The notes under the pieces were generated by a model. It had not been told where the DNA came from and did not search any database. It was given only the letters and a program-made list of their open reading frames with translations. Positions 47,252-62,800 of a stretch of DNA of 64,000 bases are shown piece by piece. This DNA comes from Acidobacteriota bacterium. Its GTDB lineage: Bacteria > Acidobacteriota > Terriglobia > Acidiferrales > UBA7541. The position numbers and the translations under genes were made by a program. The number at the start of each line of letters is the position of its first letter. The stretch's first letter is position 1. Where the stretch lies: NCBI GenBank assembly GCA_003224085.1, contig QHYK01000041.1, forward strand, positions 1 to 64,000, written 5' to 3'.

Positions 47252-48010
47252 GTGGAAACTTGTATGGATACTGTCCGCCAGCAAGGATCCTACCGAGTGC
47301 GTGTTTGCATCGCCGACGCCACCCGTATGAGCGCCCAACTGATTGCGGTGGCGTTGAAGCGGTACCACAAGAAGTTGGACATCTGCGCATTTGCAGGGAA
47401 CTCTTCCGAAGTATTTTCCGAACTAAGAACGTCTAGACCTGACATTGCCGTGATCAGCGCCCAACTGGAAGATGGCCGACTCGCTGGTTTCAAGGTCGTG
47501 GATCAGCTGCTCGCCTCGAACTCGAAAATCCGTTCAGTAATGTTGCTGGATTCCGATGAACGGGACCTCGTCGTCGATGCGTTTCGTGCCGGGGCGAGAG
47601 GTGTCTTCTGCCGGGGTAGCTCCTTCAATGCCCTCCCGAAATGTATCCGCCGCGTTTATGAAGGCCAAATTTGGATTAGTAATGCCGAACTAGAGTTTCT
47701 CCTTGGGGCAATCGTCAATCTGAGACGATTTCATATCCACAAAGGAAACGGAAACGTTTCCTTCACACCGCGCGAACGGGACGTCATCCGCCTCGTAGCG
47801 GAGGGGATGAGGAACCAAGAGATTGGCGTGGCGCTCAGCCTCCGCGAGCATACGGTTAGAAACTACATTTTTCGGGTTTTTGAGAAGTTGGGCCTATCGA
47901 GCCGGGTCGAGCTGGTTCTGTACGCGCTCAAGGCAGAACAATCTTTCGGCGACCAATCGTCTCGCGATGCAGCCGAGAGAACGGCTCCGGACATAGCTGT
48001 GGCTAGATGA
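47252..48010 (+). CDS. LuxR-type (NarL/FixJ-like) regulator with a degenerate receiver domain
   Basis: A 252-residue regulator. Residues about 14-130 fold like a receiver (RVRVCIADATRMSAQLIAVA, MLLDSDERDLVVDAFRAGAR). The C-terminal LuxR domain, about 170-235, has FTPRERDVIRLVAEGMRNQE, IGVALSLREHTVRNYIFRVF and EKLGLSSRVELVLYAL. In the receiver, the phosphoacceptor Asp after beta-3 is replaced: DIAVIS stands where DVVLLD is expected. The conserved Lys near the end is Arg (GVFCRG), and only one Asp of the acidic pair remains (ADA). Phosphorylation by a histidine kinase is therefore unlikely, and none is nearby. The GTG at 47252 or ATG 47264 may be the start. Its stop overlaps the start of the ATPase-amidase gene (ATGA). 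Confidence 0.86.
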   Translation: METCMDTVRQQGSYRVRVCIADATRMSAQLIAVALKRYHKKLDICAFAGNSSEVFSELRTSRPDIAVISAQLEDGRLAGFKVVDQLLASNSKIRSVMLLDSDERDLVVDAFRAGARGVFCRGSSFNALPKCIRRVYEGQIWISNAELEFLLGAIVNLRRFHIHKGNGNVSFTPRERDVIRLVAEGMRNQEIGVALSLREHTVRNYIFRVFEKLGLSSRVELVLYALKAEQSFGDQSSRDAAERTAPDIAVAR

Positions 48011-50202
48011 ACCTAGGGCGCATGCGAATCCAAGGCGACACATCTATGTTCCTGGAATTCTACGGGTTGAAAGAGCAGCCGTTCGGCGTCACGCCAGACC
48101 CGCGCTTCCTCTGCCCTAGCAAAACCCACTGCAGAGCGTACAACTCCTTGTCGCGTGGCCTCGAAGCCGGATGCGGCTTATTAGCTCTTGTTGCGAAGCC
48201 AGGCATGGGCAAGACCACGTTGGTGTTCCAGCTTTTAAAGCGGCTAAGTCAGACGTCTCGTCCGATCTTTCTATTCCACACGCAGTGTAATTCACATTGG
48301 TTCTTGCGCCACATACTTCGCTGCTTGGGAACGGACACGACAGGGCTAGATGCCGTTGGCATGCTCGGGAGACTGAACCAGCTTATCGTGCGTGAGCGGC
48401 TGGCTGGCCGGCAGCTTGTCCTGATCATTGATGAATGTCAGAACCTTGACAGCTCCGTGCTCGAAACGGTCCGGCTTCTATCCGACTTCGAAACACCGGA
48501 GACGAAGCTCATACAAATCGTTCTTGTAGGCCAGACCCAGTTGGCGGCGAACTTGTCAAGCCCATGCCTGGCGTCGCTTAGACAGCGCATATCAATCCTG
48601 TGCCGGTTGGAACCGCTTACGCGGGAAGAAATCGTTCGGTACATCGAACACCGGCTTCGGATAGCGGGTTATCGGGGAGCACCGCTGTTTACCGACGGAG
48701 CTCTGGAATGGATTTTGGTGCGCAGTGAAGGTATTCCTCGGAACATTAACAACCTGTGCCTCAATGCCCTGCTTGCTGGATACCAAGCAGGGCGCAAACA
48801 AATCGATTTCGATATTGTGGACAAAGTTCTGGACGACCTGGATGAGAACCCGCCGAAGCGGAAGATCGACCCGCAGCGGACACCAATCATTCTTGATTCA
48901 GGCATGTTCAGGGCCAATCGGGATAGCACGCAAGTCAGCTCCCAAGACATAGACGAGATTGTGATTGAGTTTGCCGAATCTCCGCCAGATCCGGTGCCGC
49001 AACTCGGTCACACGCAAGCACCACAGAAGGCGCAATCTGACCCTTACACCGCGAAGGGTAACATTTCGGGGCAAAAACAACTCGCTTCCAATGTAGCGGG
49101 TCATAACGCCGCTCACTCTGACACGAGCTCCCTTTCCCAGAAAACGTCCCAGTCAGTTCCTTTGCAAACTCCTGCACCGCAGCGCGCGGCCGTGATTTCT
49201 CATCCGGAGGTATCCAGTGCCCGCTGGCGCAGCAAGACCGTTGGCGCTTTGACTCTCGGTGCAGCGCTTACGGGTCTTTTACTCTTTTCTTTCAGAGGTG
49301 GGTTGCGCCGAGAATTTCAAGTCTCGCGTGGAGCAGTAGGGGCACCTGTTGGAGCGCCTCTACCGAGCCCACCGGTTTCGAGCGCCCTAGCCGCCGGCTC
49401 AACACCCGTTACCAGCCCTCTTGCGACGGATGTGTCACCTACACGGCCCTCCCTGACGCGCGCACCCGAAGGAAAGATCGTACGCATCGTGATTGATCCG
49501 GGTCACGGCGGCCGGGACACAGGCACTACTGGACCCGCGGGCTTAAAGGAGAAGGATCTTTGCATGGACATCGCGTTGCGGCTCGGGCGGATTATAAAGC
49601 AGCGGCTCCCCGGCGTAGAAGTCATATTCACACGAACGAATGATACGTTTATCCCTCTCGAAGAGCGCACCTATATCGCCAACGATATAAAGGCTGACCT
49701 CTTCTTGTCGATTCATGCGAACTCAAGCCCCTATCCCGCAGCCCGAGGCATCGAGACTTATTACTTGGACTTGGCAGAAAGCACGGAGGTGATGGAACTC
49801 GCCGCCCGCGAGAACGCAACCGCTCAAGGACCGGACAGGCTCGAGCGGATGAAGAAGACCGGGCTCGGAGAAAAAATCGAGGAATCAAGAATGCTTGCCG
49901 AAGACCTTCAAGAGTCTCTCAACCGGTTCGTCCAGCGCTCCGTGAGTGGGCTCGAGAGCCGTCGCGTGCGCCGCGCGCCCTTTGTGGTGTTAGCCGGAGC
50001 GAATATGCCTTCCGTGCTCACCGAAATCGCTTTTCCAAGCAATCCATCGGACGAGCAGCTCTTGAGGAAAGGCGAGTACTGTGAGCGTCTGGCCGAGGGC
50101 CTCTTTCAAGGTCTAGCAAACTATCTCCAGAGCCCCAACGGCGTCAAGCATAACCCACCGACGACAACGAAACCGGTTGTCGTACCTTCGGCTGCGTCGT
50201 GA
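48007..50202 (+). CDS. Fusion protein: ExeA-like AAA ATPase, membrane segment, N-acetylmuramoyl-L-alanine amidase (Amidase_3)
   Basis: A 731-residue chain with two enzyme domains. Residues about 14-285 are an ExeA/GspA-type ATPase: FLEFYGLKEQPFGVTPDPRF, Walker A VAKPGMGKTTLVF, Walker B VLIIDECQNLDS, and GIPRNINNLCLNALLAG. A Ser/Gln/Pro-rich linker leads to one membrane helix near 408-428 (GALTLGAALTGLLLFSF). Residues about 490-725 are an Amidase_3 zinc amidase with all ligands: VIDPGHGGRDTG (His), LKEKDLCMD (Glu), LSIHANSSP (His) and the catalytic Glu in VLTEIAFPSNPSDE. The ATPase would face the cytoplasm and the amidase the periplasm. ExeA couples ATP use to peptidoglycan opening for secretins. 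The first ATG overlaps the LuxR stop; ATG 48046 is the family-like start. Confidence 0.88.
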   Translation: MNLGRMRIQGDTSMFLEFYGLKEQPFGVTPDPRFLCPSKTHCRAYNSLSRGLEAGCGLLALVAKPGMGKTTLVFQLLKRLSQTSRPIFLFHTQCNSHWFLRHILRCLGTDTTGLDAVGMLGRLNQLIVRERLAGRQLVLIIDECQNLDSSVLETVRLLSDFETPETKLIQIVLVGQTQLAANLSSPCLASLRQRISILCRLEPLTREEIVRYIEHRLRIAGYRGAPLFTDGALEWILVRSEGIPRNINNLCLNALLAGYQAGRKQIDFDIVDKVLDDLDENPPKRKIDPQRTPIILDSGMFRANRDSTQVSSQDIDEIVIEFAESPPDPVPQLGHTQAPQKAQSDPYTAKGNISGQKQLASNVAGHNAAHSDTSSLSQKTSQSVPLQTPAPQRAAVISHPEVSSARWRSKTVGALTLGAALTGLLLFSFRGGLRREFQVSRGAVGAPVGAPLPSPPVSSALAAGSTPVTSPLATDVSPTRPSLTRAPEGKIVRIVIDPGHGGRDTGTTGPAGLKEKDLCMDIALRLGRIIKQRLPGVEVIFTRTNDTFIPLEERTYIANDIKADLFLSIHANSSPYPAARGIETYYLDLAESTEVMELAARENATAQGPDRLERMKKTGLGEKIEESRMLAEDLQESLNRFVQRSVSGLESRRVRRAPFVVLAGANMPSVLTEIAFPSNPSDEQLLRKGEYCERLAEGLFQGLANYLQSPNGVKHNPPTTTKPVVVPSAAS

Positions 50203-52813: not shown

Positions 52814-52951
52814 CACCGGACTTTCAGCGGCTACCCGGCACCTATTTCCTTGTTCGACTCCTTGGAAAGGGGCACACTCTCGGAAGAATTTCTGGAAGAG
52901 AATCCCGCCGTTTCGCGTGAAATGGGTTGTTTAGCGCTGCGGCGCCTTCAG
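52814..52951 (+). pseudogene. Remnant of a DUF433 (VapB-type antitoxin) gene
   Basis: The plus strand reads HRTFSGYPAPISLFDSLERG, then TLSEEFLEENPAVSREM. This follows the DUF433 pattern FxGTRVPVxxLFDYLExG, then xSLEEFLExFPxVSREQA. The GTRVP core is replaced by GYPAP, most simply by an inserted base and a compensating loss. No clear N-terminus, ribosome site or PIN-like toxin partner is present. It runs antisense into the end of the hydrolase gene. I read it as a dead antitoxin gene. The larger frame 52622-52993 around it is otherwise not protein-like, and the gap 52257-52813 holds nothing else I can support. Confidence 0.4.
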
Positions 52952-54928
52952 AGTATTGTCGAATCTGACTTCGGCAGGAACGGCCATCGCTGAGAGGTGA
53001 TCAATGTCGAACTCTTTGTACAGGTCAAGACAGAACAGTTCTGGCGCATTTTGAAACGTGACCGGAACCTGCAGCAAATAATCCAGACTAAGTATGCCTT
53101 CGTGGACAGCCACATTTGAAAAAATGTCTGGCTGAAGCGCCGCCGCAACCAGCGCGATTGCTTCCGCGCGGATACCCCTGGATTCCAGGCGCACCTTCGA
53201 TGCCGTGGTACCTCTTCGAAGCCACTCAGCAATCTCGATGAGTTGAGCCGCCTGAATTCCAACCGGACGCTCGCCTTCTCCATCTAGAATCTGCGCATAC
53301 GAATAGGGCTCGAGGTCCTTCCAGGTGTCGCCAAACAAAGTGAGGTCGAGAGCCAAAACTTGCTCGTCGCGATTCACGCGGCTGGACACATCCGCCGCTG
53401 CGGCCTTGCGGCCCTGATCGTGAAGCACGACAGTAACGGAAGCGTTCGCGGGAGCGCCGATTCCTCTCACCCAAACACCACTGGCGGCTAAACCATTGTC
53501 CATTTCAAACAAATACGAAAGCGTCTCTAACCCTTTGTTCTTGGTATTGGCCACGGTCCAGACGCGCGCTAGTCGTGCTGGCTTGTACCGAACAACCGAA
53601 TTTAATTTCTGTCGTTCCGAAATTGCCCAGGAAGACTTCGCGGTGGAGCCTGACGGAATGGGGGAGCGGCTTTTTGTGCCCGCCATCTTGCGCGCCAAGT
53701 CCAGAATGGTCAGATTGTGTTCGGGGAGCCCAACAGCGAGTTCATCATAAGTTTGGATGTCCTGGCCCGCGGGAATTTCCTTCTCAACGATAGGCATGCC
53801 GAATTGCTGGCTGAAGAAACGATAGGCGCGCTCGCGATTATCAAGCTGATAGTTATGCGTGCCAGGGTCGCGGTTCTCGTACCACTCGAAGACAGCCTCT
53901 TTCCCGTAGAGCTTGAAAAAAGGCCGAACGCCATCGTAAATCAACGGCTTCACCAGCGGCGCACGAAAACAGCAATCGTCTTCCGCATTGTGGATGAGCA
54001 ACGTGGGGCGAGGCGCCATCATGGCGGTTAAATGCGTGTAATCGACATTCGCAAGAAGATCTGTTCCGTTTTGTTCGAGGTCGCCTAAGTCGCCGTATTG
54101 CCTGGCTTCCACTTTAGTCGCGGTTGAGGAATAGCCCGCGACAGGCACCGCAACTTTTACCCGTTCATCCAAGGCGCTTAGAAAAATCGTTTGCCATCCG
54201 CCGCCGGAGAGCCCGGTAACGCCGATGCGATTGCGGTCCACAGCCGGATGGTCGTAGAGGTAATCGAGCCCGCGCCGCATTTCCAGCAGAAAAATTCCAA
54301 GCGCATTGGCACCGACCAAGTCCAGATGGGCCCCACACCAATGTTGGTTTCCCTCCGCCCGCAGCTCGCCAAAGGCGAACCATTCCAAGTTGAGTGCCAG
54401 GATGCCGTGCTTGGCGAAATTGATACACCGCTTTTGTTTGTATTCGACCGCTTTCCCCGGCGGTCCGACGTGCCCATTCACATTTAAAATTGCGGGCAGT
54501 TTGCCCTGTAACTTTTCCGGTTCGTAAAGGATCGCGACAGATTGAAAGCCGGGAACAACTTCATAGCGCAGTTTGCGAAGGCGGTATCCTTGATGCGTCT
54601 CAATCGTCCCAACCTCTTCGAAATTGGGTGGGGAGTTGACCCATTCCGGCGGCCAGCCGTGAAATACGACGTCTTGCAACAAGTGTCGGCGCAGGCGTTG
54701 GGACTCCTCCGTCCATTGCGCCGCGCTCGTCGCAATAGGCGGCCGAGGGACGCGGCTCAGGATGAACGCTTTCATCTGCAACAAAGCGGCACTGGGAGCG
54801 AGTATATCCTCCCCCAAAACGGTCTGAAGCTCTTCAGGGGTGCTTTGCGCGAAAGTTTCAATAGAAAACAGAATCCAAGCGAGGAGCGAAAGAACAATCA
54901 CGTGGATGTGATGGCGTAAGAACCGCAT
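52931..54928 (-). CDS. Secreted alpha/beta hydrolase (acetyl-xylan-esterase-like)
   Basis: A 665-residue protein with a signal peptide (VIVLSLLAWILFSIETFA). The alpha/beta hydrolase domain lies at about 100-395. LPAILNVNGHVGPPGKAVEY is the oxyanion strand, and GVTGLSGGGWQTIFLSALDE gives the nucleophile Ser in GLSGGG. The Asp is in LLIHNAEDDCC and the His in RDPGTHNYQLDN, so the triad is complete. It resembles the large hypothetical acetylxylan esterases of Acidobacteriota and Planctomycetota. The C-terminal part (about 430-665) is a second domain of mixed alpha/beta type, possibly a degenerate hydrolase (QAAQLIEIAEWLRRGTTASK). It may deacetylate plant or microbial polysaccharide. The 3' end overlaps an antisense DUF433 remnant. 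Confidence 0.8.
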   Translation of the reverse strand: MRFLRHHIHVIVLSLLAWILFSIETFAQSTPEELQTVLGEDILAPSAALLQMKAFILSRVPRPPIATSAAQWTEESQRLRRHLLQDVVFHGWPPEWVNSPPNFEEVGTIETHQGYRLRKLRYEVVPGFQSVAILYEPEKLQGKLPAILNVNGHVGPPGKAVEYKQKRCINFAKHGILALNLEWFAFGELRAEGNQHWCGAHLDLVGANALGIFLLEMRRGLDYLYDHPAVDRNRIGVTGLSGGGWQTIFLSALDERVKVAVPVAGYSSTATKVEARQYGDLGDLEQNGTDLLANVDYTHLTAMMAPRPTLLIHNAEDDCCFRAPLVKPLIYDGVRPFFKLYGKEAVFEWYENRDPGTHNYQLDNRERAYRFFSQQFGMPIVEKEIPAGQDIQTYDELAVGLPEHNLTILDLARKMAGTKSRSPIPSGSTAKSSWAISERQKLNSVVRYKPARLARVWTVANTKNKGLETLSYLFEMDNGLAASGVWVRGIGAPANASVTVVLHDQGRKAAAADVSSRVNRDEQVLALDLTLFGDTWKDLEPYSYAQILDGEGERPVGIQAAQLIEIAEWLRRGTTASKVRLESRGIRAEAIALVAAALQPDIFSNVAVHEGILSLDYLLQVPVTFQNAPELFCLDLYKEFDIDHLSAMAVPAEVRFDNTLKAPQR

Positions 54929-55419
54929 CAGCGCCTCCTAGGAAAATTCTGTAGGCACGTAAATCCCAAAAAGGGCGCTTTCCGTCTGGCTAAAGCGCAC
55001 GCAAGCGCAGTAGCATAGCGCGTGCGGCCGCGGCCGTCACGCTCTGCCGGACGTATTCCAGCGTCTGAATCTCAAGCGGGCGGAACGCATGATGAGCCAA
55101 CCGTTGCATTCGGAGGATTCATGGCTGAGGTGGGCCGAAGGCACTGGTTGCAAACTCGCAAAGGCGGAATCTTGGGCGGGCTTGACACCGGATTAAGCTG
55201 CCTCTCGTCTAAGCCGAGAAATTTGCGCTGATCGGCGCCGGCACCGCTGGCGCGAGTCTTTCATCCCCCGGCACTTGACAAGACTGGCAGGGTTGGACGG
55301 CTTTCGCCGAGGATAACTGCTTGGCCACAAGCCAAACGGTATGCTATAGCCGCCGACCACCAACGCGCGTATGTATATAGACTCAAGAAACGCCCGGCCT
55401 TCATCAGTGCACTTTAAGA
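54929..55419. promoter_or_regulatory. Intergenic region with candidate promoter for the membrane protein/VWA lipoprotein pair
   Basis: The 490 bases between two divergent genes hold no supported gene. TTGGCC (55321-55326) and TATAGC (55345-55350) are separated by 18 bases and could be a promoter facing right. The -35 box is part of a small palindrome TTGGC-CACAA-GCCAA, which could be an operator. A GC-rich block (CGGCCGCGGCCG) lies near 55024. Confidence 0.3.
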
Positions 55420-57312
55420 ATGGGACGACACCGCGCGGCGACAACGTGCTCGGCGTGGTCCACCGTTTCCGACGTCAAGTGGCTGCTTTTATACGGGGCT
55501 GTCTTCATGGAATCCTTGAGTAACGTCGTATCGCAACATATTCCTTGGTTCTGGGGTGTTCTGGCGTGGTCTCTGGCAATTCTTGGACTGCTCGCGATTG
55601 CCGCCATTCCAGCTTATTTCCTCTTCTATCCGATAAGCACAAATGTGCGGCGAGGAGTAGCATCCTACCTGTCTCGATTAGTCTCCAGGCAGTCGGCGGC
55701 GCGCGATCGTCGGCGGCGGGCAGTTGAAGCGCTGATTGAAGACTTTAAGGACAATGCGGGGATCACTTACGTGTCCGAACGCCTTACGCGCCTTGACGCA
55801 GTGCTGGTCTCCTTTTCCAAGATCACGAAAAAGCTAAAACCGCAGCTCGCTCGAGTTTCTGATCTACAGCGCGCTTTTGAGCGAGCCAGCAATAAACTGA
55901 CAGAAGCTGCGTTGAAGGCAGCTCCGGCTTTTCCGAACCTGCCAACGGCGGATCAACTACCTGCACTGCATGGAAGTCTCCGAACCGCAAAGGCCCGTTT
56001 GTTCGTATCGAGCATGATTCTGATCGCGTTGATCTCTGTCAATACAGGAATGCTGGGTCAGATTCTGCGAGATTTGGGATTCATCCCCCATGATCTTACC
56101 TATTTTGGTATTCCGCTGTACCTCGTTTTCGCCTTTATGCTTACGCTTGTCGAGGCTGGATTGGGATATGTGCACACGGCCGGCCGGCCGACGCCGGACG
56201 AGCCTTCACGTGTTGCGCTTTGGCCGCTCATTGCTTCTTGTTTCGCTGTAGTGATGGCCTGCGTGGAAGGCTTCTTCTATTCCCAGGTCGCTCCCAGCAG
56301 GAACTCCCTCGTTGACTTGCCGATTGGGCAACAAATCAAGCAGGGAACATTATTTTTTCTTTGGGGGGCGACTCTTGTACTTGTGCTTTTCGGCCTGGGA
56401 GCAATCTGGTCGGCATCCCTTGAGCGAATCGCCAAGTCGGCGGACCACTTACCAGCGCTCATACGACGCTTGTGGCGGTATCGCGAAAAATATGATGGTG
56501 CCTGCTCACGTGCAGGAACAGGCGCAGGCCGCCTGAGGGAGGAAGTTGAGGCTATGCGGCGAGAACTCCAAGCCGCAGCCCAAGAATCAACGTCGCTCGT
56601 CGCTTCGGTGACGGAACTGAAAGAGACCGCGACTTCAGAAAATCCTGAGGATGCTGTGGCACCCAGACAGCTAACCACGGCCGAAGCCCATCACTTTACG
56701 TCCTTGGCGGGAATGTGGTTCATGTTGACTTTCCTAAGTCTGTTCATCGTCACGGTGAGCGGACTCTATGCGTTCGTTCCTTACATTGGAATAACGCCGG
56801 CATGGCTCGTTTCCGTCGGCTTAGCTGCCTGCTTTTTGATCTTGGGATTGTTGCTACCGCGGGGCGAACTGCTTCTCGATGGAACGCGAAATCGGCGGCT
56901 AATAGTTTCGGGGGCTCTCTGGAAGCGAAAAACTGCTGTCATATTAGCTGCGATTGTTCTCACCGCGTTTGGCATACTCCTTTGGCGGGTTGGAGTGACT
57001 CGCTACCAGGCTGCATTCTGCATTCTCATGCTTGTCCTTTGTGGCGCGCTGAGTGCTGCTGCGAGTCAGGCGAGTGCGACGGGCAAGGGCCTGCGTATAT
57101 GGTTTCGTCTCTGTGTCGGCATGCTATTCGCAATCGTTGAGGAAGTCCTACGACTGAGTGTAAGGATTTTTCTTGCGGCCACGTTTTGTTTGGAGGTCCT
57201 GGCCCTTGCACTTGCCGCGCCGGCATTCCTGCTTCGCGGTCGCGAAGTGCCGCCACTCCATGCAGTTGAAGAAAGCAAGCGTCAGACGTTTTCGGTGCTT
57301 AGCGCATCTTGA
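55420..57312 (+). CDS. Multi-pass membrane protein with cytoplasmic coiled coils, unknown family
   Basis: A 630-residue membrane protein that I do not recognise. It has a hydrophobic pair of segments near 40-70 (FWGVLAWSLAILGLLAIAAI), then a charged helical region of about 110 residues (RDRRRRAVEALIEDFKDNAG, LARVSDLQRAFERASNKLTE). Four or so helices follow at about 195-335, a second coiled-coil stretch at about 365-410 (LREEVEAMRRELQAAAQEST), and four or five more helices to residue 610. The two halves have a similar order of soluble coil then membrane block. ATG 55507 (residue 30, GGGG upstream) is a possible real start. The stop overlaps the start of the VWA-like lipoprotein gene (TTGA), so the proteins are made together and may form one complex. 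Confidence 0.65.
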   Translation: MGRHRAATTCSAWSTVSDVKWLLLYGAVFMESLSNVVSQHIPWFWGVLAWSLAILGLLAIAAIPAYFLFYPISTNVRRGVASYLSRLVSRQSAARDRRRRAVEALIEDFKDNAGITYVSERLTRLDAVLVSFSKITKKLKPQLARVSDLQRAFERASNKLTEAALKAAPAFPNLPTADQLPALHGSLRTAKARLFVSSMILIALISVNTGMLGQILRDLGFIPHDLTYFGIPLYLVFAFMLTLVEAGLGYVHTAGRPTPDEPSRVALWPLIASCFAVVMACVEGFFYSQVAPSRNSLVDLPIGQQIKQGTLFFLWGATLVLVLFGLGAIWSASLERIAKSADHLPALIRRLWRYREKYDGACSRAGTGAGRLREEVEAMRRELQAAAQESTSLVASVTELKETATSENPEDAVAPRQLTTAEAHHFTSLAGMWFMLTFLSLFIVTVSGLYAFVPYIGITPAWLVSVGLAACFLILGLLLPRGELLLDGTRNRRLIVSGALWKRKTAVILAAIVLTAFGILLWRVGVTRYQAAFCILMLVLCGALSAAASQASATGKGLRIWFRLCVGMLFAIVEEVLRLSVRIFLAATFCLEVLALALAAPAFLLRGREVPPLHAVEESKRQTFSVLSAS

Positions 57313-58655
57313 TTCGTTTAATGCATTTATGTTGCTTGGCCACGTCCAAATCGCGCATTGTACTGCCACTCGTGGTCGCAGTCGCTTTGGGAGGATGCTC
57401 AGTCGATAAATCGCGATCCGCCGGCACCTCCTTGGTCGTGCTAGTGGACTTCAGCAAGAGCTTTGCGCCTCTCGTAAATGATGAGCGAGCACTTGAGGAA
57501 CTCGCGACCGCAACAGCAGAACTCGCTCAACGGGAATGGCAGGCTCCAGTAGAAATCCTGTGGTCACGTATTCAGACTGCCAGTTTGATTTCCAGCCCGC
57601 TGTGTGGTCCTTTCCAATTCCAGCAATCCCTGATTAAACGCGACAACGATGACTCCGCTCAGATGGCCGACAAATTGCACGCGTGTACGAAAGCGGTAGT
57701 GCGGGCCTCCACTGCTGGTTCCGAGCGGTCTGCCTATACGGATATTTCAGGGGCAGTGGCACTGGCAGCAGACCAAGGGCAAAGCGTTCTCGGTCCGAAG
57801 TACATAGTTATCGTCTCTGATTTTAAAGAGGATTTGCCACCGCGTAAGCGGCCGATCCGATTACAACTGAACGGTGAACGAATTCTTTTGCTCCACCGCC
57901 TGGGAACGGAAAGGACGCCGCTAACACTGGTTGACCATCTTGCGCGAATGCGGCGCTGGAGCGAAGCCCTGCGAGAAGCTGGAGCGGCATCGGTGGCAGC
58001 CCTTCCGTTAAGCTCTGTCACAGAGCAACGCATCGCGCGCGCGCTGGGAAGTGGAACTAAAGAAGGTACGGACGTCGTAGTTCTCCAAAACATGCCTGAC
58101 ACAGCGCGACCGGAGATGCTCAAGACCATTGCGGCCACGTTGAACAAGGCAGCACGGGATTGGCAGCCCCCCGTCACAGTGACTTGGGCGGACTTGCGGG
58201 ACGAACCTGCCATTCCGTTACAGATGCCTCCGCTGGAATTTACTCCACGGTTGGTCAAGGCCGCGGATTCCTCATCTCAGGATTTTCCCACGCTGTTGAA
58301 TGAATGTGCCGAGGGTATGCAGCGATTTTTGCCAGGAGCTAGGCTGGGAGACGTGGCAGGTTCGTTGAGCTTTTATACTTCGGCTGGCGCGCTCGATGCG
58401 GACCACGTCTTCCTGATCGTCTCCAGTTTCCCGAATTTGCCAAAAGGCCGGCCCGATTTGCCCTTGAACCTCACAGGCGTAAGGGTCGCGATGCTGCCTG
58501 CCCCCAATCGCGCGGACGCTTCTGACGAGGACGCCTACTTGGCGCGAGTCGCTCAGTGGGAGACATGGCTTAAACAACAGCACGCAAACGTCTGTCGTAT
58601 TCCCTTCAATGGCCTAACCACTGATTCATTGATTGAATGCCTGCATGGATCCTAG
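57309..58655 (+). CDS. Lipoprotein with two tandem VWA-like repeats, only the first with a MIDAS
   Basis: A 448-residue protein. LPLVVAVALGGC ends in a lipobox Cys at residue 30. Repeat 1 (about 41-240) starts SLVVLVDFSKSF, whose D-x-S-x-S is the metal-ion site of VWA domains, and continues REWQAPVEILW, KYIVIVSDFKEDLP and LQLNGERILLL, ending SVTEQRIARAL. Repeat 2 (about 255-448) shows the same steps: DVVVLQNMPDT, RDWQPPVTVTW, DHVFLIVSSFPNLP, LNLTGVRVAML and GLTTDSLIECL. Its metal site is lost (QNMPD). This is an internal duplication visible by eye. It should be anchored to a membrane facing the periplasm. Coupling to the preceding membrane protein suggests a two-protein envelope complex. ATG 57321 is an alternative start. 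Confidence 0.72.
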   Translation: MIRLMHLCCLATSKSRIVLPLVVAVALGGCSVDKSRSAGTSLVVLVDFSKSFAPLVNDERALEELATATAELAQREWQAPVEILWSRIQTASLISSPLCGPFQFQQSLIKRDNDDSAQMADKLHACTKAVVRASTAGSERSAYTDISGAVALAADQGQSVLGPKYIVIVSDFKEDLPPRKRPIRLQLNGERILLLHRLGTERTPLTLVDHLARMRRWSEALREAGAASVAALPLSSVTEQRIARALGSGTKEGTDVVVLQNMPDTARPEMLKTIAATLNKAARDWQPPVTVTWADLRDEPAIPLQMPPLEFTPRLVKAADSSSQDFPTLLNECAEGMQRFLPGARLGDVAGSLSFYTSAGALDADHVFLIVSSFPNLPKGRPDLPLNLTGVRVAMLPAPNRADASDEDAYLARVAQWETWLKQQHANVCRIPFNGLTTDSLIECLHGS

Positions 58656-58706: not shown

Positions 58707-58980
58707 TCAGAATGGAGCTGGGCTGCGAGTATTTTCTGGCGAACAGCCGCCCCAATCTGCCCTTCTGATTTCCGCTCTTTTAGCCTCTGGGGCTTGGCTC
58801 AACAGCTTCTCGAACTCCTCCAGCTTGGGCCGGGTGATGACCTTCAAGTTCACCGCGTCGCCCTTTCCAATGACCACGAACTGGTCGCTTTGAGTGAGTC
58901 CGAGATCATTGCGAACCTCTTCGGGAATAATAGCGATTCTGCAATCGGGCCTCCTCTGATCATTGAAAAGATTGGACTGT
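58707..58980 (-). pseudogene. AbrB/SpoVT-type antitoxin-like gene with a damaged start
   Basis: The minus strand encodes RIAIIPEEVRNDLGLTQSDQ, then FVVIGKGDAVNLKVITRPKL and EEFEKLLSQAPEAKRAE. This is the swapped-hairpin AbrB DNA-binding domain (xxTIPxEVRxxLGLxxGDxxxVxxxGxxxxLxxI) with a helical tail, as in MazE/VapB-like antitoxins. The expected N-terminal strand with an ATG (MxxTxVxxKGQ) is missing: the frame continues upstream into unrelated Arg/Ser-rich text up to 59339, and the first strand has an extra Ile (AIIPEE). No toxin gene is adjacent. Probably a decayed orphan. Confidence 0.45.
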
Positions 58981-59203: not shown

Positions 59204-61054
59204 ATGAAGCTTGAGCGGTTTCTCGAGAGCAACGTGGTTTTGGCCGTGCTGGCGGCCTCAGCCTTCGCGACAGGTTGCGGGGGTGGGGGATCGGCGAGCA
59301 GCACCCTGCCAGCGCCTTCCGGACCCCTTTCGGTATCACTTTCTACAGGTACTGTGGTTGTGCCTCAGGACGGAACGCCCGGGACTGTTGGTATCACTGT
59401 CAGTGGGATAAATCCGGCGAGCCCGATATCGGTTACGGCGAGCAACTTGCCAAGCGGAGTCACTTCGCAATTTATTCCCACGGCCGGAGGATCAGGCGGT
59501 GCTCTTTCTTTGACCGCCGCATCCACGACCCCGTCAGGAACATACTCTGCGAATGTGGTAGTGACAGACGGGACCCGGACCGCGAGCCAGCCGTTTGTGC
59601 CGGTGATTGCAATTGCCGCATCCGCCGCGAGCGCTGTCGATACGACCCTTGGAGTTGGCGGCAAGTTGGAAGAATTCATGTCCACGTCGTTCCAGCCGTC
59701 AGGGGGGAACTATCTATTCTTCCAGAATCACACGGCGACGGAACCGGCTCAGCTGAACAAACTTGGCCCGCAACATATTCGCCTGCAAGCCATCGACCAA
59801 GCAGTGCCCATGAAGGCAAACACCGGATCCGCCACGGACTGGGACTTTTCCAGCCTGGACTCGGTTGTGCAGCCGGTGCTGAGTGCGGCGGATAACAGTC
59901 CGGAGTTTCAGATCGCCGTGGCGCCGGCCTTTCTGAATGATCCGACGACAGGCCAGTTCATTTTTAATGCTGCAAACGTGCAGGCTTTTGCCGATTACAG
60001 CGCGAACTTGGTGAAGTATTACAACAAGGGCGGTTTCACCTGGGGAGGAACTACGTTTGTTTCCAGCTATCCACAGCATCCGATTACCTGGTGGGGCATT
60101 TTCAACGAATACAACATCAACGGAATGACGGCGAGCCAGTACATACAGCTTTACAATACAGTTGTTCCCGCGATGCTCAGCGTAGACAGCACGATCAAGT
60201 TTTCCGCGCTGGAACTTGCGGTGACGAACCCAACGACGGACCTGCCGCCGTTCGTGGCCTCCCCAGCGAATGGAGGAGTCAATGCGCAGGTCAATGTCGT
60301 CTCCACGCATTTCTATCCCACCTGCGACCAGCAAGACGTGGACGCCACTTTATTCGATCGCGTGCTGCTGATGATTCAATACATCAACTACGTCTATCAG
60401 GAACTGGGAACGCGAACGGACCTGAAAAGCGTGCCGCTTTGGGTGACGGAAAACAATGTGAACGCGGACTATTCCAATCCCGACGGAACGAGCAATTGCA
60501 ATCCAACGGTGAAGTTCGTTTCCGATCCGCGAGGAACCAGCCCGTTTTTTGCGGCCTTCCGGCCCTACGTGTTTTCGCAATTTGGAAAAGCGGGCAATCA
60601 AGCGCTGTACCACTGGGTTTATGCGGCGGATACCCAGTCCGGCGAAGTGGACTTCAACACCGGAAGCACTTATCTGAGCTACTGGGTGGATTATTGGTTG
60701 GGGCAGATGTTTCCTTCGATGCCTCAGTCACCAGGCCCTTACATCCTGCAATTATCTGTGACCGAGACGTCAAGCGCAGAGGTTCTTGCGACAAAGAATG
60801 GCGACGGATCCGTAGTGATCATGATCGTAGACCACGCAGTGCATGCCGCCACCGACAATAATGGGCCGGGCGATCCGCGAACTGTGATTGCCGATGTTTC
60901 GGCATTGGGAACGTTCTCCAGCGCCACGTCGATGACCATTGATGCAAATACGAACACGACGAGCGGACCTTCTGCAGTAAGCATCACGCCCACGCAGAAG
61001 ATGTCAGTGACGATGGGCGGGTACGGCGTGACTTTTGTAAAGTTGAAGCCCTAA
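59204..61054 (+). CDS. Lipoprotein glycoside hydrolase-like protein (clan GH-A TIM barrel, GH39-like)
   Basis: A 616-residue exported lipoprotein. The signal region ends in a lipobox-like AFATGCGGGG. An Ig-like/BACON-type beta-sandwich follows (about 40-140; VSLSTGTVVVPQDGTPGTVG, NLPSGVTSQF). From about 150 to 530 comes a TIM-barrel glycosidase-like domain. PITWWGIFNEYNINGMTASQ gives the Asn-Glu acid/base pair of clan GH-A after strand 4. VPLWVTENNVNADYSNP gives the nucleophile Glu after strand 7. A C-terminal beta domain closes the chain (TKNGDGSVVIMIVDHAV). It may act on plant or bacterial polysaccharide; the substrate is unknown. AGGTG lies just before the ATG. Confidence 0.75.
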   Translation: MKLERFLESNVVLAVLAASAFATGCGGGGSASSTLPAPSGPLSVSLSTGTVVVPQDGTPGTVGITVSGINPASPISVTASNLPSGVTSQFIPTAGGSGGALSLTAASTTPSGTYSANVVVTDGTRTASQPFVPVIAIAASAASAVDTTLGVGGKLEEFMSTSFQPSGGNYLFFQNHTATEPAQLNKLGPQHIRLQAIDQAVPMKANTGSATDWDFSSLDSVVQPVLSAADNSPEFQIAVAPAFLNDPTTGQFIFNAANVQAFADYSANLVKYYNKGGFTWGGTTFVSSYPQHPITWWGIFNEYNINGMTASQYIQLYNTVVPAMLSVDSTIKFSALELAVTNPTTDLPPFVASPANGGVNAQVNVVSTHFYPTCDQQDVDATLFDRVLLMIQYINYVYQELGTRTDLKSVPLWVTENNVNADYSNPDGTSNCNPTVKFVSDPRGTSPFFAAFRPYVFSQFGKAGNQALYHWVYAADTQSGEVDFNTGSTYLSYWVDYWLGQMFPSMPQSPGPYILQLSVTETSSAEVLATKNGDGSVVIMIVDHAVHAATDNNGPGDPRTVIADVSALGTFSSATSMTIDANTNTTSGPSAVSITPTQKMSVTMGGYGVTFVKLKP

Positions 61055-62224: not shown

Positions 62225-62800
62225 CTAGGAGCCGGCGGGTTCTCGGGCGTGTACGCAAGCGGACCATCGGCCGCTAGCAGCTAGCGTGGCGGCGGTTGGC
62301 TCCGTTCCTGTTACGGCTTTGGGAGAGAGCTTGGCCAAGCCAAAATCGAGGATTTTGGCATGACCCCGTTCTGTGACAAAAAGGTTGGCAGGCTTAATAT
62401 CGCGATGAACGATTCCCTTGACGTGCGCGGCATCCAGCGCGTCGCTGATCTCAATACTCAGTGAGACCAGAGTTTCCAGGTCCAGCGCACGGCTGGCGAG
62501 GCGGTGCTTCAGCGTCGTGCCCTCCAGAAATTCCATGGCGATAAATCTTTGTCCGTCCAGCTCCTCGACGTCGTAGATCGTGCAGATATTGGCGTGGTTC
62601 AGGGCGGACGCAGCCTGGGCCTCGCGCCGGAACCGGGCGAGTGCATGCGAGTCCCGAGCTATGTGGTCAGGTAGGAACTTGAGCGCAACAAAACGGCGGA
62701 GCCGCGTGTCCTCAGCCTTGTAAACCACTCCCATCCCGCCGCCACCGATCTTTTCGATGACACAGTAGTGCGAGATGGTCTGGCCGATCATTGATGGCAA
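62225..62800 (-). pseudogene. Ser/Thr protein kinase (PknB-type) truncated after the DFG motif
   Basis: The 191-residue frame is a clean N-terminal kinase domain: [20 protein letters not shown] (P-loop), VALKFLPDH (ATP Lys), [16 protein letters not shown] (catalytic loop) and [12 protein letters not shown] (DFG). It then stops about 25 residues later, just before the activation segment should reach GTxxYMSPEQ. The whole C-lobe, the substrate site and the WD40 or TPR sensor region usual in acidobacterial kinases (500-900 residues) are absent, and the following 130 bases do not restore them in any frame. All ATP-site residues remain, but a lobe-less kinase should be inactive. Probably a truncated gene. 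Confidence 0.75.

Follow-up and report, generated by a model that had tools for sequence, protein, structure and literature searches.

A rare two-gene unit of soil Acidobacteria encoding a coiled-coil membrane protein and a tandem-VWA lipoprotein, and its distant links to motor-like operons

In our study, a stretch of 64,000 nucleotides from an Acidobacteriota bacterium (GenBank assembly GCA_003224085.1, contig QHYK01000041.1, positions 1 to 64,000; hereafter the window) was found to contain two genes lying side by side on the + strand. Gene 1 (55507-57312) encodes a multi-pass membrane protein of 601 residues, and gene 2 (57321-58655) encodes a lipoprotein of 444 residues with two tandem von Willebrand factor A (VWA) domains. 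The pair is a real and rare two-gene unit of soil Acidobacteria, and its lipoprotein can be grouped with other periplasmic VWA proteins, some of which are encoded together with motor-like proteins. The two proteins probably act as an envelope sensor, of a type that we did not find described. The first-pass annotation, made from the sequence by a model, had proposed a membrane protein followed by a lipoprotein and had assigned them to no named system. The open reading frames (ORFs), hydropathy and lipobox agreed with the former statement, and no fitting Pfam, NCBIfam or PADLOC family was found for the two window proteins, in agreement with the latter.

Within the order, both genes were present in the same four of 95 genomes (G000, G012, G013 and G014), always adjacent and in the same order, so that the membrane partner accompanied the close lipoprotein homologues in 4/4 cases, as had been anticipated. 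Among the 36 genomes of the genus, the pair was found in four, at different genomic sites. The ratio of nonsynonymous to synonymous substitution (dN/dS) was 0.14-0.21 for gene 1 and 0.12-0.25 in the two halves of gene 2, which indicates purifying selection. DNA conservation among the four loci comprised a block of 74-145 bases 5' of gene 1, resumed after an insertion in the window and ended at the stop codon of gene 2. The conserved unit therefore begins at most about 250 bases ahead of gene 1 (55258) and extends to the gene 2 stop, and the flanks are unrelated. Of the genes flanking the pair in the window, the upstream one was present in all three other pair-bearing genomes and the downstream one in two, on contigs different from that of the pair; therefore, either the unit has moved or the DNA around it has. 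No mobile element was seen at the ends of the pair. A patchy, relocated cassette under purifying selection suggests a conditionally useful function, for example in defence or envelope stress. In the copy of G013 (L009:4170-4200), gene 2 was split by a deletion of the linker and a frameshift between the VWA domains; the fragments resemble the intact copies, and this copy of the gene may be decaying or misassembled.

The lipoprotein signal peptide of gene 2 (57321-57398) ends in LGGC and is followed by a serine. By inspection, the lipobox (SKSRIVLPLVVAVALGGC-S) was kept in 4/4 copies, including the lipidated cysteine (codon 57396-57398). Because a serine follows the lipidated cysteine, the lipoprotein would be held at a membrane that is probably the outer one, with both VWA domains facing the periplasm.

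The lipoprotein had been described as containing the same series of segments twice, and the alignment of its halves supported this duplication. Comparison of half 1 (VWA domain 1, 57423-58064) with half 2 (VWA domain 2, 58065-58652) by hhalign gave a probability of 98.7%, an E-value of 2.6e-16 and a score of 106 over 195 residues, with the paired segments in register, whereas the maximum score among 100 column shuffles was 19.9. A structural model of half 1 was built with AlphaFold, using all eight half-sequences as the alignment with both halves pooled as one family. The model (predicted TM-score, pTM, 0.65; predicted local distance difference test, pLDDT, 61.6) showed a secondary structure order of b-a-b-(b)-a-a-b-b-a-b-a. 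A Foldseek search with it returned 17 matches at E <= 0.001, nearly all of which were VWA domains, and VIA-align gave a Z-score of 10.9 with 180 residues aligned and a root-mean-square deviation of 3.9. The model and both structural searches thus bear out the VWA-like fold proposed earlier for half 1, which on this modelling is predicted to be a VWA domain. No Pfam or NCBIfam VWA profile matched gene 2 at E <= 1; the VWA assignment rests on fold and motif because gene 2 is too divergent for these profiles. A full-length AlphaFold model of gene 2, made with three close sequences, reached a pLDDT of 39 and was not used.

Half 1 was found to contain the residues expected of a metal-ion-dependent adhesion site (MIDAS): a D-x-S-x-S motif (VDFSKS), the T of AYTDISG and the D of IVSDF, encoded by codons at 57447 (D), 57453 (S), 57459 (S), 57738 (T) and 57819 (D). 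Judged by position and conservation, this site appears to be intact in all four copies. In half 2, all three parts have been replaced (QNMPDT, LGD and VSSF). The first-pass annotation had noted the D-x-S-x-S motif in the first repeat only, and to this can be added that half 2 has also lost the T and D positions. Matrix or surface proteins are often the ligands of VWA domains whose MIDAS is intact, and the VWA domains of integrins and of the anthrax receptor were among the structural matches to half 1. A cell-surface adhesin, which gene 1 would merely localise, is nevertheless improbable: no export or surface-display partner was seen, and the related VWA proteins of the plasmid operon described below are anchored by a transmembrane (TM) segment and encoded with inner-membrane motor-like proteins.

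Hydropathy analysis of gene 1 predicted about 10 TM segments and two charged, coiled-coil-like stretches, both predicted to be cytoplasmic. The first stretch (55642-55914) lies in the loop between TM1 and TM2, a loop of 132 residues with 24 K/R and 11 D/E, and is followed by a central block of four TM segments (55999-56406). The second stretch (56416-56634) gave weak matches to coiled-coil families at residues 330-424 and is followed by a C-terminal block of about five TM segments (56695-57222). One copy of gene 1 (L010:4215-5978) contained an in-frame deletion that removed 14 residues from the loop before TM5 (the LVDLPIGQQIKQGT region).

The C-terminal block, which extends beyond the coiled-coil part, would be in keeping with gene 1 being a transporter or an enzyme of envelope biogenesis and the lipoprotein its assembly or substrate-presenting subunit. 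VWA proteins in Bat-type systems are thought to act in assembly or substrate presentation, and the BatB-type aerotolerance proteins (3ibs and 4jdu), which are likewise bacterial membrane-associated VWA proteins, were among the best structural matches to half 1. However, the BatB-type proteins contain one VWA domain and have no detectable sequence relation to gene 2, and no Bat-type partners were seen next to the pair. No transporter or enzyme family matched gene 1, and none of the four copies was seen to be accompanied by a MoxR ATPase, a BatA-type neighbour or a substrate gene. We regard a transporter or biogenesis role as unlikely.

Relatives beyond the four copies were few. The phylum was covered by samples of 297 and 396 genomes, and a single further relative of gene 2, P0005 of G290, was found in them, in another family of the Acidobacteriota. 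For gene 1, the sample of 297 genomes of the phylum yielded no relative other than its own. Plasmids (tblastn with genes 1 and 2) and viral contigs (peptide-pattern scans) gave no relatives of either gene. The matches of gene 2 in G087 and G091 were rejected as TonB-like proteins aligned over a 'DWQPP' stretch, and a match in G296 was rejected since it is interrupted by a stop and lies over unrelated genes.

P0005, the 5' end of which is cut off by the contig edge, showed 29% identity to gene 2 across both halves (E 2.6e-36). The T and D of the MIDAS in domain 1 were also present in P0005. Its half 2 reads ADFKPH, GTDLSG and VSDF at the corresponding positions; because the T and the last D are still present there, the site in half 2 was probably lost in steps. 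Downstream of P0005, with an overlap of 8 bases, lies a gene for P0003, a protein with four TM segments and a long coiled coil, followed by a gene for P0004, with one TM segment and a coiled coil; the operon of these three genes occupies L024:1-3060 (G290:C254). P0003 matched ZorA models at E-values of 1.4e-7 and 7.4e-7, mainly on the coiled coil. The most frequent Pfam match of the TM region in the family formed by P0003 and its plasmid homologues (g3) was PF01618 (MotA_ExbB), which was seen in three of 10 members with a best E-value of 0.0097, below the curated cut-off. A P0004-like gene of G379 had no recognisable partners nearby.

A tblastn search with P0003 matched 17 alphaproteobacterial plasmids, on which four genes were found in a fixed order: g1 (coil, four TM segments, coil), g2 (one TM segment and a VWA-like domain), g3 (the P0003 family) and g4 (one TM segment and an OmpA/MotB domain). 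The genes g1 and g2 occur in the same 24 plasmids. Examples include RL_RS31080-RL_RS31095 on pRL11 of Rhizobium johnstonii 3841 and the loci L029-L034, L035 and L038-L042. This four-gene operon is undescribed; its products carry the labels hypothetical or 'OmpA family', and one record names a chemotaxis protein and a DMT transporter, apparently in error. For the TM part of P0003, the alignment with plasmid g3 had an E-value of 5.5e-12, and P0004 aligned with g4 at 2e-7, the latter match being confined to the N-terminal part, and no shuffled comparison came near these scores. A T-x-A-E membrane motif was common to P0004 and g4. The g4 protein can be placed with the MotB/OmpA proteins, as it contains one TM segment, reaches the Pfam cut-off for the OmpA domain (27.2 bits) and matches MotS at an E-value of 1.4e-4. 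A gene for a secreted thermonuclease-like protein (SNase plus a 'sunset' domain) was found beside the operon in eight of the 12 loci examined.

The plasmid operon resembles the window pair in that a coiled-coil multi-pass membrane protein precedes a periplasmic VWA-like protein, and g2 is collinear with VWA domain 1 (E 9e-4; score 31.1 vs a maximum of 23.2 in 100 shuffles). The g2 protein did not align with half 2. It differs from the lipoprotein in having a single VWA-like domain, a TM anchor and an altered metal site (LLDxxD), and in the plasmids g3 and g4 follow. Gene 1 takes the position of g1 and has a similar coil-four-TM-coil centre, but it agrees with g1 solely in this layout and in gene order. 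Homology of the two was rejected as unproven, as hhalign gave E-values of 0.04-0.06 and the full-length score was reached by four of 100 shuffles.

The neighbours of the distant homologue suggest an envelope module that is akin to the operons of MotAB/ZorAB-type motors. As in Zorya and the other 5:2 motors of the MotAB, TolQR and ExbBD types, P0005 is followed by a four-TM protein with a long coiled coil and a one-TM coiled-coil protein, and the alphaproteobacterial relatives of these motor-like proteins bear an OmpA/MotB-type domain. Unlike in Zorya, the ZorA matches in G290 and the plasmids lie mostly on the coiled coil, and the MotA_ExbB match stays below the cut-off. ZorA-like and MotB-like genes accompany the distant homologue in G290 only; no gene of either kind adjoins any of the four copies of the pair. 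None of the Zorya effectors ZorC-ZorG was found among the immediate neighbours in the window or in G290, and PADLOC gave no match for either protein of the pair. The window pair was rejected as a member of Zorya, since it lacks both the ZorA/ZorB core and the effectors. The Zorya components listed in PMC11890865 include no VWA proteins, and our literature search, which reached few subscription papers, revealed no publication linking a VWA component with Zorya or with the plasmid operon.

The pair may still be a small anti-phage or conflict module, a cousin of Zorya without the motor, in which the lipoprotein would sense a perturbation of the envelope and the membrane protein would itself act as the effector, perhaps through depolarisation or opening of the membrane. 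The scatter of the pair over four of the 36 genomes of the genus at different sites, the ZorA-like and MotB-like proteins beside the distant homologue and the thermonuclease with the related plasmid operon in 8/12 loci would fit such a role. We consider it doubtful, however, as neither gene fits a defence model of PADLOC or NCBIfam, no gene seen next to the pair in the window codes for a nuclease, a helicase or a known defence protein, and ordinary genes can also relocate without a mobile element.

We tentatively favour the reading that the two proteins act as a self-contained sensor and transducer of the envelope, related to the modules that combine a VWA protein with a motor but lacking the motor. 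The window lipoprotein would work with its own multi-pass partner in place of adjacent motor genes. Domain 1, with its complete metal site, would bind an acidic ligand or a partner through the metal, domain 2, in which the site is lost, would serve as a fixed protein-protein interface, and the membrane protein would pass the signal on to the two coiled-coil stretches on its cytoplasmic side. Several findings weigh against this reading. The confidence of the VWA model of half 1 was just moderate. The link to motors consists of one distant homologue at a contig edge and one weak profile match. The comparison of gene 1 with the core of g1 was marginal (21.5 vs a shuffle maximum of 20.1), with no reliable similarity, and no homologue of the MotA/ZorA-like g3 was found in G000, G012, G013 and G014, in which g4 was not searched for. 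As no g3-like gene was found in these genomes, a pair of the window type probably either works independently of that motor or uses an unrelated one.

More speculatively, and in our opinion with little likelihood, periplasmic VWA proteins (tandem or single), coiled-coil membrane proteins and ZorAB/MotAB-like motors may together constitute a class of envelope machines that is so far undescribed and often includes a periplasmic thermonuclease. Such machines would sense contact with the envelope and drive a response such as the degradation of incoming DNA, and the window pair would then be a minimal, motor-independent branch. A family without any annotation is here linked to ion-driven membrane motors, and the link leads to a conserved, unannotated operon on plasmids of well-studied rhizobia (such as pRL11 of R. 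johnstonii 3841), where it is directly testable. If a VWA sensor does gate a ZorAB-like motor, this would reveal which signals a motor-based envelope system responds to, a point which, on our reading, the work on Zorya leaves open.

The gene starts were examined by comparison of the four loci. A start of gene 1 at ATG 55420 had been proposed, but gene 1 starts at ATG 55507, since the three homologous loci start at that Met. The ATG at 55420 and the source of the 29 residues preceding Met 55507 lie in an insertion of about 87 bases (55405-55491), unique to the window genome, between the putative promoter block and gene 1. Gene 2 had been placed in a four-base overlap with gene 1 (TTGA, 57309-57312), which would give a lipoprotein of 448 residues from a TTG start at 57309. 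The overlap exists in the window sequence but is not conserved, as it was found in two of the four copies (the window and L009); in L008, gene 1 stops earlier and leaves a 26-base gap to gene 2. In L010, a TTG start is impossible because TAA stands at that position. Owing to a one-base difference in the window genome, gene 2 more likely starts at the in-frame ATG at 57321, 8 bases past the end of gene 1. Of the proposed translational coupling, the tight spacing of the genes remains, but coupling itself is undemonstrated; because the four-base overlap is not conserved, we regard coupling as possible and unproven.

The conserved block upstream of gene 1 (55258-55404, + strand) showed 80-91% DNA identity with the other three loci over 74-145 bases and is probably the promoter/operator of the pair. 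No consensus sigma-70 site was found in it. The block contained a hairpin-like inverted repeat (GCTTGGC-CACAA-GCCAA(A/G)C), imperfect in the window and disrupted in L010, which could be an operator.

In the window, the pair is flanked by an esterase-like gene on the opposite strand (52931-54928; PF00326/PF05448) and by a putative lipoprotein gene (59204-61054), for which no Pfam family was found. Just 3' of the pair, a short stretch (58776-58928) was found to recur at several sites in related genomes with 70-75% identity. It is overlapped by an antisense ORF, which matched no Pfam family and the C-terminal part of which looks AbrB-like. A protein-kinase-like ORF of 191 residues on the - strand (62225-62800) ends within the kinase domain (positions 2-153 of 263 of PF00069) and looks truncated. 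The gene at 48007-50202 (+ strand) encodes an ExeA-like AAA ATPase fused to an N-acetylmuramoyl-L-alanine amidase (Amidase_3) in one protein of 731 residues.

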